A stretch of 36,267 nt of DNA. Origin: an uncultured Verrucomicrobiota bacterium. Lineage in GTDB: Bacteria > Verrucomicrobiota > Kiritimatiellia > Kiritimatiellales > Tichowtungiaceae. Shown piece after piece: positions 3,892 through 36,231 of this stretch. The first letter of the stretch is position 1; every line of letters starts with the position of its first letter. The notes beneath the pieces were generated by a model. The model was not told where the DNA came from. It saw only the letters and a list, made by a program, of their open reading frames with translations, and did no database searches. A program made the translations under genes and the position numbers. Where the stretch lies: positions 1 through 36,267 of the forward strand of contig CAIKGD010000069.1 of NCBI GenBank assembly GCA_903826865.1, in the 5' to 3' direction.

Positions 3892-7110
<3,219 letters not shown>

Positions 7111-9575: not shown

Positions 9576-10385
9576 TCAAAACAGCTTGTTGAAATTGTCT
9601 TTCATCGACAGCATGCGGCCCGGCGCGGTTCTTTTCACCAGGCAGCCCTTCTCCCACCGGCTCAAACGGTACAGAGTCGCAAACGTAAAGTCCGGAACCG
9701 AACCGCCCTGCCCTCCGACCAGCTCCCCGCCGCGCCGTACATTATCCTGCATCCAGGCCGGAAGCGACAGGTGATACGGATTGCGTTCCACTTCTTTCAC
9801 GTGGAAAGAAATCGCCGCTACCAGTTCAGCCAGCGTCGCGGCATCCGCTTCTATCATCAGGTTCGGGTCATCCATCGCGCCCCAGAATTCGGTTTCGATG
9901 ACCGTGCAGGAAAAACTTTTTTCCATTTCCGCGAGAGCAGCCGTCACCAGAAAGTGGGTGGAAATATGGCGCGAGTTCCAATCTTTGGAATGCGGCATAA
10001 AGACAACGGACGGCCGAACCGTCTGAAGGATTTCGACCACATCCTCTTTTTCCAGAATCCGGAACCCTTCCGTCCGTTGGAAAATTGTCCAGCCAAGAAA
10101 GCCGCAGGCGTTTTTAAGTTCTTCGGCGCGGCCCGGCTGCCGTTCCATATTACTGCCGAAAGTGACCGGCACGTTGATGATTCTCATTCCCGTCTCGCGC
10201 ATGAGGCGTAAAGGCAGCAGACCGGTGATGCACTCGTCGTCCGGATGCGGCGAAAACAGCAGAACCCGCGGCGCAGCGTCCGGAAGTTTCCTCGCACCGC
10301 ACGGCTCAAGGCCGCCCGCCGGCAGTTTTTTCGCTGATTGAAACTGTTCTTCGATCTGTTGAACAAACTTCAGATACGGGTTCAT
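9576..10385 (-). CDS. PIG-L (LmbE-like) zinc deacetylase
   Basis: 269 aa. The zinc motif P-H-P-D-D-E is at 46-51 and the second metal-ligand motif H-I-S-T-H at 140-144, the signature of LmbE/PIG-L N-deacetylases acting on N-acetylglucosaminyl groups. An N-terminal extension of ~38 residues precedes the Rossmann-like core. No signal peptide, so it should be cytoplasmic. It is preceded by AAAGGA 9 nt upstream of the ATG. Position immediately before nagB, and absence of nagA, suggest it removes acetyl from GlcNAc or a GlcNAc derivative to feed NagB (inference). The family also includes deacetylases for mycothiol and bacillithiol precursors and chitobiose, so the substrate needs testing. Confidence 0.85.
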   Translation of the reverse strand: MNPYLKFVQQIEEQFQSAKKLPAGGLEPCGARKLPDAAPRVLLFSPHPDDECITGLLPLRLMRETGMRIINVPVTFGSNMERQPGRAEELKNACGFLGWTIFQRTEGFRILEKEDVVEILQTVRPSVVFMPHSKDWNSRHISTHFLVTAALAEMEKSFSCTVIETEFWGAMDDPNLMIEADAATLAELVAAISFHVKEVERNPYHLSLPAWMQDNVRRGGELVGGQGGSVPDFTFATLYRLSRWEKGCLVKRTAPGRMLSMKDNFNKLF

Positions 10386-13042: not shown

Positions 13043-14461
13043 TCAATACCGGTAGTGTGCCGGCTTGAACGGGCCGTTCGGCGAAATGCCGAGATATTTT
13101 GCCTGTGCACGTGAAAGTTTTTCCAGTTTCACACCGACTTTTCCCAAATGCAGCCGCGCAACTTCTTCGTCGAGTTTCTTCGGCAGGGTGTAAACACCGA
13201 CCGGATACTTGCCGGGGTTGCAGAAGAGTTCCATCTGAGCCAGCACCTGATTGGTGAAGCTGTTGGACATTACAAAGCTCGGGTGCCCGGTGGCGCAACC
13301 GAGGTTCACCAGCCGTCCTTCCGCCAGAAGCAGAATGCTCTTCTTGTTCGGGAAGGTGATTTTATCGACCTGCGGCTTGATGTTGCTCCATTTATATTTC
13401 TTCAGTTTTTCAACCTGAATCTCACTGTCGAAGTGGCCGATGTTACAAACAATCGCCATGTCCTTCATTTTCCGCATGTGTTTTTCGGTGATAACATCGC
13501 AGCAGCCGGTCGTGGTGACAAACAGGTCGCCGATGGAGCAGGCGTCATTCATCGTCATGACTTCATAACCTTCCATCGCGGCCTGCAGAGCGCAAATGGG
13601 ATCTATTTCCGTAACGATAACCCGCGCGCCCTGTCCTTTGAGCGACTGACAGGAACCTTTGCCGACATCGCCGTAGCCCGCAATGACGGCGATCTTGCCT
13701 GACAGCATCACGTCGGTGGCACGCATGATTCCATCCACCAGCGAGTGACGGCATCCGTAAAGATTATCGAACTTCGATTTGGTCACCGAGTCGTTCACGT
13801 TGAAAGCCGGGAAGAGCAGTTCGCCGCGTTCCATCATCTGGTAGAGCCGGTGCACGCCTGTCGTCGTTTCTTCACTGACACCGATAATACCTTTGGCGAT
13901 GCGCGAAAAACGTTTCGGATCCTTGTTGAGCGCCGTTTTCAACTGCGCCAGCAGCACTTTTTCTTCGTGACTGCCCGGCTTGCGGTTCAGAATGAAGGGA
14001 TCACTCTCGGCTCTCAGGCCGAGGTGCACAAAAAGTGTAGCGTCGCCGCCGTCGTCAAGAATCATGTTCGGACCCTTGCCGCCGCCCCAGTCGAGGATGC
14101 GGTCGGTATAGTCCCAGTATTCTTCCAGCGACTCGCCCTTCACCGCAAATACCGGCGTACCGGTAACGGCAATAGCGGACGCCGCGTGATCCTGTGTTGA
14201 AAAGATATTACAGCTCGCCCAACGAACTTTTGCGCCGAGAATCTGCAACGTCTCAATCAGCATCGCCGTCTGAATTGTCATGTGGAGCGACCCGGTAATT
14301 CGCGCGCCTTTGAGCGGCTTGTCTCTTCCGTATTTTTCGCGCAGAGCCATCAGGCCGGGCATTTCATGCTCGGCCAGCTCCATTTCCCTGCGGCCGAACG
14401 ACGCCAGTGAAAGGTCTTTAACAACGTAATCCGGATTCTTTGAAATCATTTTTTTCGCCAT
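13043..14461 (-). CDS. ahcY: S-adenosyl-L-homocysteine hydrolase (adenosylhomocysteinase)
   Basis: 472 aa. It hydrolyses SAH to adenosine and homocysteine, relieving product inhibition of methyltransferases. The NAD-binding [11 protein letters not shown] motif is followed by the acidic strand end [20 protein letters not shown] and the C-terminal F-K-P-x-H-Y-R-Y are family signatures. It is the long bacterial form with the ~40-residue insertion (around W-G-G-G-K-G-P-N and after). The start follows the sahR-like gene stop by 2 nt, with CGGAG as ribosome-binding site, so the two are co-transcribed. No riboswitch-like leader exists because there is no intergenic space. Cytoplasmic. Confidence 0.97.
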
Positions 14462-14463
14462 AT

Positions 14464-15411
14464 CTATTTACTCCGTTTCTTCTCTTCTTTGGTTGCAACA
14501 ATCATCACTACAGAAAAAGCCGGCTCCGGCCCTTCCAGAGTTTGGAAAACCTCCATTTTCAGTCCGGCTCCGGCCAGCCAGCCGCGCAACTCGCGCTCAT
14601 CGAACCCCAGCCACTGATCCGCCCACTCACTGCGCACCCACTCCTGGTCGTGATGAGCCAGATCAAGCAGAATCAGCCGTCCGCCCGGCTTTAAAATACG
14701 CGCCGCTTCAGCCAGCGCTTTGCCCGGACGCGCAACGTGATGCAGCACCTGGCTCACAAAAGCCGCGTCCATACTGCCGGTATCCAGAGGCAGTTTTTCC
14801 AGATCGCCTCGTTCCACCGTCACACGCCGCGCCGCGCCTGCTTCCGCAGAACGCTCCTGCACGACGCGCAGCATCTGTGCAGAAAGATCAACCGCCACCA
14901 CCCGTTTTGCAAAGCGTGCCAGCAACAGTGTCAACTCGCCCTCGCCGCAGCCGATATCGGCCACCGTCTGTCCGGTAAACCCGGCGGCCAGCGCGGCGGC
15001 CATAGCCTGCCAACCGCCGCCCGGTTGCGTAAGCGAGCCGTAGCGGCCGGCGATTTCGTCAAAAAACTTTGTACTTTCCCGGCGGCGCAGTTCAATGGCC
15101 CGGTCAACCGCCGCACGATCACGGCTTGCACCGCGCAGTTCAGCCAACTTTTCGCTCATCAGCTGCGCAAAGGCCTGATCCTGAAAAACAGGTCCGCGCC
15201 GGTAATAGACCGAAGTGCCTTCGCGACGGGTGTCGAGCAGCCCGCTGTCGCGCAGCGGTTTCAGGTGGCGGCTTACCGATGACTGCGGCATTTTGAGCGC
15301 CTGCACAATTTCAGCCACCGACAGCTCGGCGATTTCCACCGCGCGCAGAATGCGCAACCGGACCTCGTCGCCCAGCGCTTTGAAAACCTCAAGAATGTTG
15401 GTTTCGGTCAT
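14464..15411 (-). CDS. ArsR-type regulator fused to a SAM-dependent methyltransferase domain (SahR-like)
   Basis: 315 aa. Residues ~1-85 form an ArsR winged helix: [13 protein letters not shown], then recognition helix Q-S-S-V-S-R-H-L-K at 43-51 and wing R-R-E-G-T-S-V-Y-Y. No metal-binding Cys pair is present. Residues ~105-310 are a class I methyltransferase fold with motif [11 protein letters not shown] (150-159), acidic V-A-V-D-L (172-176), and the post-motif L-K-P-G-G-R-L. This fusion followed by ahcY is the arrangement of SahR, the SAH-responsive repressor of methionine-cycle genes described in Proteobacteria; SAH as ligand here is inference. A promoter and an 8-bp inverted-repeat operator candidate lie immediately upstream. 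The C-terminus is strongly basic. Confidence 0.88.
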
Positions 15412-15550: not shown

Positions 15551-17044
15551 TCAGTTCCGGTCCCACTCGACAATCTTTCGACAGACATTCTGTCCGCAGA
15601 GCACCACCATCGGCATTCCGCCGCCGGGATTTACTGAGCCGCCGGTGAAAAAGAGATTGTCATAGAGCGGACTCTGCTTCGAACTCTTGAAAGCAAAGTT
15701 TTTCCAACGGCTGGAAACCACGCCGTAAATCGAGCCGTGATTGGAATAGTAGTTTTCCTGAATGTCGAACGGAGTCCAGACGTGTTCAAAAACGGTATGC
15801 TTGCGCAGATCGTGCAGACCCATGCGTTCGAGTTTATCAACAATCCGCTCTTTGAACGCCAGATAGTCTTGGCGGGTATACGGATGCTTTTCGTTAAGAT
15901 AAGGAATATGCGGCAGGATTTTGAGACAATCACAGCCCGGGGGCGCAACGGTCGGATCGGTGCGCGAAGCAGCAACCAAATAAATGGTGGGATCGTCGGG
16001 TAGCCTCTTTTCGCAAAAGACGGTTGAGAAATGCTTTTTCTGATTTCCGGAAAAGAAAAAATTGTGATGGGCCAGCTGTTCGTATTTGCAGTCGAGCCCC
16101 AGATCAAGCACCAGTCCGGAGCAGGCCGGTTCAAGTATTTTTTCCAGCCGGTTGACGAAGGTGCTGCTTTCTTTCAGCAGATCCCGGCAGACCGGAACGA
16201 CCTCCATATTGGAAACAATGATATCAGCCGTGACACGGGTTCCATCCTTAAGAGTCAAACCGGTCACCCGCCGCCCCTCTTTTTCAATGGCCGCCACTTC
16301 GCTGTTGAGATGTACGCGGATACTCAGCTCCTCCATCAGACGTCCGAGACCGAGCGCGATGTTGTACATGCCGCCGTCGGCGTACCACAGATCGTGCCGG
16401 AACTGAATGACCGGCAGGCAGTTCATGAAGCCGGGCGCGTCATAGGCCGATGAGCCGACATACTTGATGAAAAAATCAAAAACATCCCGCAGATGCGGCT
16501 CGCCGATATGCCGCGCAACACCGCCATGCATGGAGCGGAGAAAGTCGAACTGCATGAAACGGAATAAGCCGTAAAATCTCCAGAAGTCGCGGACGTTATC
16601 CAACCCTTGCTGGAAATATCCTCTGTCGGTCAGATCGTACTGTTTAGCCGCATAGTCGAGAAACCGCCGCACCTGCCTTGCCGCTCCGGGCGCAACCCGT
16701 TCGGCCTCCGCATCCATTTTGTCCGGCTCCGGATAGAGGTTGATCACCGTGCCGTCGTCGAAAAAATTCCGCCAGTGCGGACGAACCGGACGAATGGAAA
16801 AATAGTCGGACATTTTGCGTCCGGAACGCTCAAAGAGTCTCTCGAACAGGTGCGGCAAAGTCAGGATGGAAGGTCCGAGATCAAAGGTATATCCTTTGGC
16901 ATTCAGAAAATTGAGCTTTCCGCCGATCCGGCTGTTCTTCTCGTAGAGGTCGACCGGATAACCCTCCTGCGCCAAAGAGATCGCGGCGGAAAGTCCGCCC
17001 AGTCCGGAACCGATGACTGCCACATTTTTATTTTTTTGCTTCAT
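15551..17044 (-). CDS. Carotenoid desaturase/oxygenase, CrtI/CrtN/CrtP superfamily (copy 1)
   Basis: 497 aa FAD-dependent amine-oxidase-fold enzyme. The dinucleotide motif V-I-G-S-G-L-G-G-L-S-A-A is at 10-21, followed by Y-E-K-N-S-R-I-G-G-K (34-43) and Y-T-F-D-L-G-P-S. The C-terminal CrtI signature F-F-T-G-G-S-V-N-P-G-G-G-M-P-M-V is at about 468-483. Enzymes of this group desaturate phytoene or diapophytoene, or oxidise terminal methyls of C30 carotenoids (CrtP). Sequence reading alone does not separate these. It overlaps the upstream TPR gene by 4 bp (ATGA) and is one of two such paralogues in the locus, with an aldehyde dehydrogenase between them. That pattern suggests one desaturase and one terminal oxidase. 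Confidence 0.88.
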   Translation of the reverse strand: MKQKNKNVAVIGSGLGGLSAAISLAQEGYPVDLYEKNSRIGGKLNFLNAKGYTFDLGPSILTLPHLFERLFERSGRKMSDYFSIRPVRPHWRNFFDDGTVINLYPEPDKMDAEAERVAPGAARQVRRFLDYAAKQYDLTDRGYFQQGLDNVRDFWRFYGLFRFMQFDFLRSMHGGVARHIGEPHLRDVFDFFIKYVGSSAYDAPGFMNCLPVIQFRHDLWYADGGMYNIALGLGRLMEELSIRVHLNSEVAAIEKEGRRVTGLTLKDGTRVTADIIVSNMEVVPVCRDLLKESSTFVNRLEKILEPACSGLVLDLGLDCKYEQLAHHNFFFSGNQKKHFSTVFCEKRLPDDPTIYLVAASRTDPTVAPPGCDCLKILPHIPYLNEKHPYTRQDYLAFKERIVDKLERMGLHDLRKHTVFEHVWTPFDIQENYYSNHGSIYGVVSSRWKNFAFKSSKQSPLYDNLFFTGGSVNPGGGMPMVVLCGQNVCRKIVEWDRN

Positions 17045-24146: not shown

Positions 24147-25319
24147 TCACCGGGTTACGGTCAGCGCCTTCCCTTTCACCGTCGGCCGGTGGTTTTCAAA
24201 AAGGTGGGAATAGGCAAACAGCGCATAGCCGCAGCAGCCTGCCTTGCGTACCGCAGCGATCTGGCGGCGGATTTCAGACGTACTGGCCTTGCAATCGATC
24301 CCAACCACCAGTTGTGAGGAGACCGCGCTGCGGCCCAGCGACTTGCGCATTTTATTGAGCCGCTCGTCAAAAAGCTGCGGATTGTAGTTCATCGGCACCA
24401 GCCAGTCGACCATCTGCTCTTTGGCCCAGCGGCGGCTGTCCTGAAACGCCAGATCATATCCCTTGTCAAAATCAGCCAGTACGCTGGATGATACAACGCA
24501 TTGCGGCCCGCGCCGTTCCTTGAAGGTCTGGCGCAATCCGGCAACAACCTGCGAAACCGCATCGCGCCGGTATGCACCCCAATTGCCGCTGTAACGCTGC
24601 CGGACCTGCTCTGTAGAAAACCGGTCATAGGAAAAGTCCGATCGCTTTTTAATCTCCTCCGGTGAAGCTTTTGGATAAATTTGAGACGCCACGTCTTTAT
24701 AGTCGTAAGGAAAACGGATGTAGTCGAGGTGCAGCCCCGCAATATCGTAACACGCCAGTTCGGCAGCCAGCTGCGTCAGGTGCCGACGGACTTCCGGCAA
24801 CGCCGGATTCAAAAAAGAATACCAGCCGCTGGTCGGGCGCATACGCTGACCGAGCGAATCGACCATGAACCATTCTGGATGTGCCGTCCAGTTTTGCCCC
24901 GCTGAGCGCGGAGGCGCTGAGAGCCCCCGCCAGCCGGGCAGTACATTCATGTAGGCATGCAGACGAATGCCCCGCTTTTTGGCACTGTCAGCAGCTGTTC
25001 GGAGAGGATCCCATCCCGGATTCCGTCCGGTGGTAGAGGCGTTTTCGCTCGTAAGCTCAAAGGCCCACGGCTCTGTTCGGCTTGGAAAAAAAACGGTGCC
25101 ATTGCCGCGAATCTGGAAAAAGATGTCCGTAAATCCCGCACGGGTGCAGTTGGCGATAATCGCCTCCACGTCAGCCGGTTTCTGGTAGTCAAACCGGGTC
25201 ACCCAGATTGCGCGCACCTCCGGCTGATGCGCTGTTTTGGCTCCGGTAAAAAGCATGGAAATCAGCAACAATAGAAGAACTGGAATGACCGATGGAGTTT
25301 TTTTCATATGGCGAAGCAT
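24147..25319 (-). CDS. Secreted GHL10-family glycosidase-like protein
   Basis: 390 aa with a signal peptide (M-L-R-H-M-K-K-T, then V-I-P-V-L-L-L-L-L-I-S-M-L-F). The mature protein is a TIM-barrel of the GHL10/DUF187 type: V-R-A-I-W-V-T-R-F-D-Y, D-I-F-F-Q-I-R-G-N-G, W-D-P-L-R-T, H-A-Y-M-N-V-L-P, L-H-L-D-Y-I-R-F-P and D-W-L-V-P-M-N-Y. These hydrolases act outside the cytoplasm on glycans including denuded peptidoglycan; activity of this member is unproven. The start was set by GGAGA 8 nt upstream of the ATG at 25319; the ribosome-binding site is part of a TTCCA/TGGAA palindrome that belongs to the divergent promoter region shared with tolQ. Confidence 0.85.
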   Translation of the reverse strand: MLRHMKKTPSVIPVLLLLLISMLFTGAKTAHQPEVRAIWVTRFDYQKPADVEAIIANCTRAGFTDIFFQIRGNGTVFFPSRTEPWAFELTSENASTTGRNPGWDPLRTAADSAKKRGIRLHAYMNVLPGWRGLSAPPRSAGQNWTAHPEWFMVDSLGQRMRPTSGWYSFLNPALPEVRRHLTQLAAELACYDIAGLHLDYIRFPYDYKDVASQIYPKASPEEIKKRSDFSYDRFSTEQVRQRYSGNWGAYRRDAVSQVVAGLRQTFKERRGPQCVVSSSVLADFDKGYDLAFQDSRRWAKEQMVDWLVPMNYNPQLFDERLNKMRKSLGRSAVSSQLVVGIDCKASTSEIRRQIAAVRKAGCCGYALFAYSHLFENHRPTVKGKALTVTR

Positions 25320-25327
25320 AATTGATT

Positions 25328-25405
25328 TCTCCAATCTTTGGAAAAAAAACTGTACTGTTTTTCCAAACACTGGAGAATACGGGACGCCTTTCCCAAACAT
25401 TTGAA
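25328..25405. repeat. Three helically phased TTCCA-N5-TGGAA palindromes between the GHL10 gene and tolQ
   Basis: Copies: CTCCA-ATCTT-TGGAA (25329-25343), TTCCA-AACAC-TGGAG (25361-25375) and TCCCA-AACAT-TTGAA (25391-25405). Each has at most two deviations from TTCCA-N5-TGGAA. Centres at 25336, 25368 and 25398 are 32 and 30 bp apart, close to three helical turns. Read in one orientation the central five bases favour AACAC/AAGAT, so sites have polarity. They fill the whole divergent control region. Confidence 0.75.
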
Positions 25406-25422
25406 CCCGGAGATGACACATT

Positions 25423-26172
25423 ATGAATATACTGTTTTCACCCCTGATGCTGGCCAGTATCGGTCTGGCATTCCGTCAAAGCGAGCTGAACGGAAAAGTG
25501 ATTGTGCTTATACTGGTTTTTATTTCAGTAGGTGCCTGGACGGTGATGCTGACCAAATTCTCCCAGTTGCATGCCGCCCGGCAGGCAAGCAACCGTTTCT
25601 TGAAAGTTTTCCGCGAACAGGCCCGCGCGACCAATCTGTTTGTTAAAAAACAGCACATGCCGGAAACCCCGCTCGACGCAATCTATGGTGCAGGATGCAA
25701 AGCGCTGATCGAGCAACTTATCCTGATCGGCGTTGACCGCGACGAAATTCTTATGGGTAACGTCTACCCGCAGGGACAAAGACGGCTTGATACACATCAG
25801 ATGGATGTCATACGCGATGCGGCAGATTGCGCGCTGGCCGATAAGGCCCTTGAACTGGAAAGCCTTATGGGTCTGCTGGGAACCGCTGTCAGTGTCGGCC
25901 CGTTCCTCGGCCTGCTGGGAACCGTGTGGGGCGTAATGGGAACGTTCAGCGGAATGGCAACGGCCGGATCCGCCACGCTTTCTGCCGTGGCTCCCGGTAT
26001 TTCGGGCGCGCTGCTGTGTACCGTGGCCGGACTGCTGGTGGCGCTGCCCGCCACAATCGGATACAGTCTGCTGGCAACCCGCATCCGCTATCTCTCGGTG
26101 CAGATGGATAATTTTTCACAGGAGTTCACCGGACGTATTCAGCAGGAATTCATGCTGAATTACTCTAAATAA
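25423..26172 (+). CDS. tolQ: TolQ/ExbB/MotA-family proton-channel subunit
   Basis: 249 aa inner-membrane protein of the Tol-Pal energising complex. Three membrane segments: ~25-43, ~150-175 (L-L-G-T-A-V-S-V-G-P-F-L-G-L-L-G-T-V-W-G-V) and ~190-217 (A-P-G-I-S-G-A-L-L-C-T-V-A-G-L), with a cytoplasmic loop of ~100 residues between the first two, as in TolQ. G-P-F-L-G-L-L-G-T-V-W-G-V-M is the family signature. First gene of tolQ-tolR-tolA-x-tolB-pal. Only 11 nt separate it from tolR. Preceded by the phased palindrome cluster. Confidence 0.9.
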   Translation: MNILFSPLMLASIGLAFRQSELNGKVIVLILVFISVGAWTVMLTKFSQLHAARQASNRFLKVFREQARATNLFVKKQHMPETPLDAIYGAGCKALIEQLILIGVDRDEILMGNVYPQGQRRLDTHQMDVIRDAADCALADKALELESLMGLLGTAVSVGPFLGLLGTVWGVMGTFSGMATAGSATLSAVAPGISGALLCTVAGLLVALPATIGYSLLATRIRYLSVQMDNFSQEFTGRIQQEFMLNYSK

Positions 26173-30329: not shown

Positions 30330-31511
30330 ATGCTGAGTTCCATTCTACAGCTTTCAGCGGCGGCACAGCTGCCTTTGGCGCAAGCCGGGCAGCTGTTGCT
30401 TGTAGTGGTTGTTTCGTTTGCGGTTATCACCTTGATCAGCAGTACGTACCGCTTCCACCGGATGATCCAGCTCAGCGAGACGGCACTCACTACTGTTGAA
30501 GACTGCGATGACTTCTTCTTCGTTCAAGTCACTCGCTATCTAAGCAAAATCAACCGCACAGCCTCAGGCTTCGGCGTTTTCATTGTGCAGTTCCGCACCG
30601 GGGCACCGAATAAGCGGCGCGTGCAGGAAGACCTGCTTAACGAACTTAAAAAATATGTCCGGAATGCAGACGATAAAGTCTGCCTTTTCCGCGACGATTG
30701 CGTGACGGCCATAATCGACTCCGAGGAAACCAACATGCCCGCTGTGGCGCAACGTATAACAGCCGACCTGAAAAAAGTCGCGTCCGCTGTCTCCGGCGTG
30801 AATGTCTTCCGCGTCGGCATCAGCAGCTTTCCCATGCATGGCGCCACCACACAGCAACTCATTGATACAGCAACCGGCGCACTCGAAACCGCAGGATTTG
30901 AAGATCCGCTCCCGTTCCGCATAGCCCCTGCACAGGAAACAACAAAGATGGAAAAGACTTCCGGGGAAATCGGCGCGCTAAGCCGGGAGGATAAAAACGC
31001 TGCGCTAGATCCTCTCACCGGCGTACTCAAGCCTACCGTCGTCGGTTCCTACATGCGCAAATACCTCGACGAAATCCGCCGGCAAAAAAAACCGGCCGTT
31101 CTGCTCTGCATCGGCATCAACCGCATCGATCAGATCATACAGCTACACGGCGAAGCGGCAGCCGACGACGTAATCGCCGGTGTCAGCAAAGTGCTCCAAC
31201 GACTGACACGGGACTGCGATCTCGTCGGGCGCTTTCACCGTGATGATTTTATCGTGCTCTCCCCCTGCACCCTTCAGCAGGGTCAAATGATTGCCACCCG
31301 TCTGCGCGAGGCCGCTCAGAAAGAGGTTTTTATCTCCGGCGGCAAGCAAATCAAAGCCGCTGTCAGTATTGGCATCACCGCACATCCGCAACACGGCCGC
31401 AACCTGCGCACTCTATTCAGCGGAGCGCACCGGGCGCTTGAGGTCGTCCGTGACTGGAATACCACGGCCTGTCTGGTGTATGATCCCGCGCAACACGCAA
31501 AAAAAGATTAA
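30330..31511 (+). CDS. Membrane-anchored protein with two degenerate GGDEF domains
   Basis: 393 aa. One membrane helix at ~19-38. First GGDEF-fold at ~75-200 (G-F-G-V-F-I-V-Q-F strand, L-F-R-D-D-C at 119-124 in place of the signature, R-V-G-I-S-S-F-P at 161-168). Second at ~225-385, opening D-P-L-T-G-V-L-K (227-234), with I-G-I-N-R-I-D-Q-I-I and R-F-H-R-D-D-F (301-307) where G-G-D-E-F is expected, then V-S-I-G-I-T-A-H-P. Both catalytic loops have lost the glycines, so cyclic-di-GMP synthesis is unlikely; binding or structural roles are possible. It follows pal by 32 nt and precedes pdxJ by 2 nt, hence the same transcript. Confidence 0.82.
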   Translation: MLSSILQLSAAAQLPLAQAGQLLLVVVVSFAVITLISSTYRFHRMIQLSETALTTVEDCDDFFFVQVTRYLSKINRTASGFGVFIVQFRTGAPNKRRVQEDLLNELKKYVRNADDKVCLFRDDCVTAIIDSEETNMPAVAQRITADLKKVASAVSGVNVFRVGISSFPMHGATTQQLIDTATGALETAGFEDPLPFRIAPAQETTKMEKTSGEIGALSREDKNAALDPLTGVLKPTVVGSYMRKYLDEIRRQKKPAVLLCIGINRIDQIIQLHGEAAADDVIAGVSKVLQRLTRDCDLVGRFHRDDFIVLSPCTLQQGQMIATRLREAAQKEVFISGGKQIKAAVSIGITAHPQHGRNLRTLFSGAHRALEVVRDWNTTACLVYDPAQHAKKD

Positions 31512-36045: not shown

Positions 36046-36080
36046 ACTATTCCCACTTTCCAATGCCCGAAACTTTAACC

Positions 36081-36108: not shown

Positions 36109-36231
36109 TCCCACTGTTTGGAAAAAATCTATACGTCCCGACGCTTTCGGTTCCAAAGAGCTGGAAAAAGTAGCGGTTCAGGCTTCCAGTGTCTGGGAAA
36201 ATCGATGGCAAAAGTTCCAAACTCCTTGGAA
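36109..36231. repeat. Four helically phased TTCCA-N5-TGGAA palindromes upstream of pheS
   Basis: Copies: TCCCA-CTGTT-TGGAA (36109-36123), TTCCA-AAGAGC-TGGAA (36151-36166), TTCCA-GTGTC-TGGGA (36184-36198) and TTCCAA-ACTCC-TTGGAA (36215-36231). Centres at 36116, 36158.5, 36191 and 36223 give spacings of about 42, 32 and 32 bp. One arm of the second copy is the -35 box of the candidate pheS promoter, and the first copy covers the predicted start point. Confidence 0.78.
36128..36156 (-). promoter_or_regulatory. Candidate pheS-pfkA promoter
   Basis: On the - strand TTGGAA (36151-36156) and TATAGA (36128-36133) are spaced by 17 nt. The predicted start is near 36121, giving a leader of about 75 nt that carries the 10-bp repeat. 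The -35 is weak by consensus, which fits activation or control through the overlapping palindrome. Confidence 0.45.

Follow-up and report, generated by a model that had tools for sequence, protein, structure and literature searches.

Helically phased palindromes upstream of tolQ and pheS belong to a class-limited, apparently undescribed genome-wide motif in Kiritimatiellae

The region between a GHL10 glycosyl-hydrolase-like gene and tolQ in the window (the whole 36,267-bp stretch of DNA analysed here) is filled by copies of the dyad TTCCA-N5-TGGAA, and the same dyad recurs in helically phased arrays throughout many genomes of the class Kiritimatiellae. Literature searches returned no published description of the motif, or of repeats in this class, and the arrays form a real and apparently undescribed system that spans whole genomes and is confined to this class. 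The palindromes are probably the sites of one cooperative dimeric protein, a putative chromosome-wide DNA binder.

Palindrome arrays in front of tolQ and pheS

The GHL10 gene (24147..25319, minus strand; Pfam PF02638, E 3.9e-30) and tolQ (25423..26172, plus strand; PF01618, with TIGR02796 the best match but under its cut-off) are divergent, and the 103 bp between their start codons at 25319 and 25423 are occupied by three palindromes. The initial annotation had placed three copies here with centres 32 and 30 bp apart, and these positions were confirmed, the centres being 25336, 25368 and 25398. Copy 1 (CTCCAATCTTTGGAA, 25329..25343) adjoins the GHL10 start and fits the dyad at 9 of 10 positions, as does copy 2 (TTCCAAACACTGGAG, 25361..25375), the conserved core copy upstream of tolQ; copy 3 (TCCCAAACATTTGAA, 25391..25405; 8 of 10) lies just upstream of the tolQ ribosome-binding site. 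None of these elements has an assigned strand. The gene tolQ is the first of a cluster with the order tolQ-tolR-tolA-like (TolA/TonB-like)-(unknown)-tolB-pal, in which Pal scores over its profile cut-off, and a GGDEF (diguanylate cyclase) gene follows pal (30330-31511). We did not retain the earlier description of the GHL10 product as a peptidoglycan-type hydrolase, as GHL10 is a glycosyl-hydrolase-like family for which no evidence points to peptidoglycan.

Among relatives in the genus, copy 2 is retained and the outer copies 1 and 3 show gains and losses. Copy 2 is kept as TTCCAAACnnTGGAG followed by AATAC and preceded by CTGTACTG in G414, G026, G411 and G412 (with one further change in G412), and is also kept in G409, with a small change after the palindrome. 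Copy 1 has decayed in G414, G026 and G409, and copy 3, weak in the window, is perfect in G411 and lost in G414 and G026. The GGAG within copy 1 could serve as the GHL10 ribosome-binding site, as had been suggested, but it is not kept in G414 and G026, and the overlap of copy 1 with that site is therefore not a conserved feature. The linker between copies 1 and 2 (25344..25360, no strand assigned) holds a conserved block, CTGTACTG, identical or near-identical in six genus members, which is perhaps a promoter element common to the divergent GHL10 and tolQ genes; a simple consensus scan of the window's GHL10/tolQ intergenic region gave no match to a sigma-70-like promoter. The block AAACTGTACTGTTT in the same linker is itself near-palindromic around GTAC and is kept in the genus.

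A second array, which the initial annotation had placed before pheS and had attributed to the same signal and not to chance, is real. Its centres at 36191, 36159, 36116 and 36065 are spaced by 32, 43 and 51 bp, that is, 3, 4 and 5 helical turns, and its copies match at 8-9 of 10 positions (36184..36198, 9/10; 36152..36166, 8/10; 36109..36123, 9/10; and TTCCAATGCCCGAAA at 36058..36072, 8/10; all without assigned strand). Both promoters carry the motif in relatives as well. In the sister family f2 the tolQ palindrome lies between apparent -35 and -10 elements, TTGCTT-TTCCnnnnnTGGAAA-TATsTT, and at pheS TTGCCA is followed by the palindrome and then by GATGAT/GATAGG, these hexamers having been read by eye. 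In two families, sites that overlap the apparent promoters of tolQ and pheS have been retained. In G047 and G084, which are free of the motif genome-wide, the apparent promoter elements of both genes are kept and the palindromes have decayed, a pattern to be expected if a trans-acting binder had been lost. It had been proposed to compare the tolQ upstream regions of relatives, with close relatives lacking the palindromes at unchanged promoters taken as evidence against a shared signal. The outcome is mixed: the copy at the presumed promoter is kept, the outer copies come and go in close relatives, and promoters unchanged without palindromes are seen in the more distant G047 and G084.

The functions of array-fronted genes bear on the suggested link between envelope genes and pheS. 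The genes preceded by an array, 58 in all, match 101 Pfam families and have no common pathway, so that a special co-regulated pair of tolQ and pheS is not supported. Genes of the tolQ type, GHL10 and pheS do recur among array-fronted genes, partly at least since orthologues of the same loci were sampled. What stands of the suggestion is that both promoters bear the same signal; this signal is not specific to these genes, nor does it single them out, since dozens to hundreds of sites per genome occur with genes of all kinds. Three intragenic sites within the window, again without assigned strand, match at all ten positions: the perfect site TTCCAATCTTTGGAA in a PIG-L deacetylase gene (9976..9990), one in an ArsR-methyltransferase fusion gene (14533..14547) and one in an amine-oxidoreductase gene (15702..15716). 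In the stretch 13043-15411 the ArsR-type HTH-methyltransferase fusion adjoins an S-adenosylhomocysteine hydrolase gene and is a plausible SAH-linked regulator.

Genome-wide abundance, phasing and lineage dialects

The palindrome is a duplex-DNA motif that occurs above chance. Enrichment is mild in the window alone (25 matches at up to two mismatches, against 18.4 +/- 3.8 in shuffles), whereas the window's 2.64-Mb genome holds 114 copies of TCCAANNNTTGGA against 2 of the reversed control, and 14 phased close pairs against 0. When all 5-base dyads with gaps of 1-11 were scanned without bias, the top ranks in every motif-positive sample went to TTCCA-N5-TGGAA and its sub-form TCCAA-N3-TTGGA, with 59 observed versus 1.0 expected in 420 kb of G000 and 107 versus 1.35 in 400 kb of G079; the same scan gave no comparable dyad in G003, G047, G038 and G020. 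Sense-strand G.U and A.C mismatches are equally rare, a balance which indicates that the motif is read as duplex DNA and not as RNA. An RNA hairpin, attenuator or terminator was rejected on this ground, G.U not being tolerated above A.C.

Neighbouring sites are separated by gaps of 22, 30-33, 40-43, 52-53, 61-65, 72-76, 83-85 bp and so on, with a period of 10.45 bp (Rayleigh p~3e-28; one gap per cluster, n=120 gaps). Phasing persists when the 30-33 peak is removed (p~1e-6) and among pairs with both sites inside genes (p~7e-11); the control motif gave no pairs at all.

Arrays were found in 74 of the 164 genomes of class Kiritimatiellae, with up to 1351 pairs per genome and none for the control in any of the 164; genomes sampled from other classes contained no arrays. 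For the strict form TTCCAANNNTTGGAA the highest count in a genome is 1339 (G009), as compared with 0-3 for controls. Otherwise positive families include array-free genomes, namely G047, G084 and G298 in f2 and G003 and G017 in f3. The outer arms, the TTCCA half-site, are constant, and the inner five bases vary by lineage: TTCCAANSNTTGGAA in the window's genus, where the flanks are A/T-rich and the centre is G or C, TTCCATTSAATGGAA in G240, TTCCATGSCATGGAA-like in G265 and TTCCACRSYRTGGAA-like in parts of family f10. Inner bases also differ genome-wide within a genus (G240 versus G254/G363 in g46, G265 versus G071 in g14), as though all sites of a genome had changed dialect together.

Judged by named relatives of its TolQ, the window belongs to the order Kiritimatiellales (Pontiellaceae and relatives). 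In this order some two thirds of the perfect sites are intragenic, using all three reading frames and the whole gene length, the fractions being approximate because genes were taken from a simple codon-usage caller. Perfect sites within genes exceed the expected number tens of times over, and an amino-acid cause (FQxLE, frame 0) was ruled out by the use of all three frames. An intergenic excess is nonetheless significant in all genomes that were tested (p from 0.007 to 3e-39). Sites of family f4 are nearly purely intergenic (54 of 54 in G009) and those of f1 and f2 mostly intragenic, and the role of the sites may differ by lineage accordingly. Arrays also lie between convergent genes, with 6 of 24 in G009.

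A putative chromosome-wide binding protein and its alternatives

Under the reading we favour, each dimer would recognise TTCCA-N5-TGGAA in double-stranded DNA, and dimers two, three, four or more turns apart would share one face of the DNA, bind cooperatively and perhaps wrap it. At tolQ and pheS the best-kept copy would lie within or against the core promoter, where its occupancy would hinder or modulate RNA polymerase, and the outer copies would make binding stronger. The sites at other places, including those inside genes, would form a nucleoid (chromatin-like) layer addressed by sequence. The turnover of inner bases within a genus is faster than is usual for a global regulator and counts against this reading. 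A more far-reaching, tentative proposal is that part of Kiritimatiellae possesses a nucleoid system in which a cooperative protein reads a phased palindrome code that extends through genes, the perfect sites numbering up to about 1,300 in a genome, and in which TTCCA stays fixed, the inner dialect switches between species, and the specificity of the protein and hundreds of sites change together.

The intergenic enrichment and the promoter-overlapping sites kept across two families would also be expected if the palindromes were ordinary operators belonging to a single transcription factor whose regulon is very large, with the intragenic single sites weak, decoys or accidental. We regard this as unlikely, given that accident does not explain intragenic sites that are both far in excess and helically phased, that arrays occur between convergent genes too, and that the targets share no function. 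High copy number, patchy presence and lineage-specific inner bases would also suit a dispersed repeat family (REP/MITE-like) or a DNA-uptake-type word spread by recombination, and in family f16 some arrays are indeed alike over 140 bp, linkers included. In the lineages of f1, f2 and f4 that were sampled, however, the linkers are unrelated and have nothing in common except A/T beside the palindromes, and most arrays are therefore not duplicated repeat units; helical phasing has no obvious meaning for a repeat or an uptake word, and the sense strand lacks the G.U bias of an RNA hairpin. We consider this origin improbable for the system as a whole. Other dispersed repeats of f16 are apparently present at L215 (G240:C19), where, besides the array at 2358-2498, stretches at ~2123-2217 and 6855-6976 match many places in G363 and G438.

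Known Lrp-type sites are 15-bp palindromes on one helix face with centres two or three turns apart and with wrapping of the DNA (PMC2995911, PMC4046817), and the array layout fits Lrp biology best. The arrays described here resemble those of Lrp/AsnC proteins (FFRP, e.g. Ss-LrpB) in the size of the palindromes, their spacing on one face and their broad reach, but they have another half-site and number hundreds to more than 1000 sites, compared with 37 ChIP peaks for Ss-LrpB (PMC4046817, PMC2995911). The sites could accordingly be those of a single conserved Lrp/AsnC protein forming oligomers on palindromes so spaced, and all 41 array-bearing genomes that were chosen first for this search encode a PF01037 protein. 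Most genomes that lack the motif encode the same protein too, and its HTH is almost identical in G047 and G157; its presumed recognition helix varies within genus g1, where the motif is constant; and its own upstream region has no array, only single sites being found in G079 and G029. A conserved Lrp as the binder is therefore disfavoured, and we give this identification little credence. The Lrp/AsnC-like protein is near universal in the class (L168-L187), mostly with one per genome, and its C-terminal part is conserved and its HTH more variable.

Other candidates for the putative binder were rejected in turn. No LysR protein is present in the motif-positive genomes G000, G009, G062, G145 and G160, and no TetR protein in the motif-positive G148, G044, G160, G112 and G336. 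Genes adjoining the few arrays in genomes poor in the motif were searched for the binder and yielded only unrelated enzymes, PIN, HARE-HTH and AbiEii-like proteins and the like.

Relation to known dispersed palindromes

Noc-binding sites and the matS sites of MatP are palindromic sites along the chromosome, each read by a dedicated protein and numbering in the tens. They share with the palindromes described here their dispersed, palindromic nature and are set apart from them by description, not by sequence; we know of no helically phased arrays, and no intragenic abundance of this order, in those systems. REP/BIME elements are many short intergenic palindromic elements in tandem groups, which have similarity beyond the palindrome and can form hairpins, unlike the present arrays with their unrelated linkers and negative strand test. 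Nucleoid proteins of model bacteria are mostly AT-guided. If the favoured reading of one chromosome-wide binder is true, these bacteria would possess a precise, sequence-coded binding system across the chromosome, and it would become testable how sites spread and persist within coding regions, and how a DNA-binding protein of global reach changes specificity along with hundreds of sites. Arrays (17 pairs) are present in the culturable P. sulfatireligans (F21, taken as G406), so the putative binder could be isolated.

The archaeal SegB sites, TCTAGA-S-TCTAGA, offer a further parallel: they number 32-46, are mostly intragenic and clustered near segAB, and are interpreted in terms of chromosome organisation (PMC12284271). 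The two systems share an odd palindrome with a central G/C and a dispersed, mostly intragenic location (as in f1 and f2 here), and they differ in the small number of SegB sites, in their proximity to segAB and in that SegB sites are not known to form 31-bp phased arrays. Among IMG/VR viral contigs, strict arrays were found on only four stretches from three contigs (L188-L191), and the same palindrome sites may be present in phages or prophages of these hosts.
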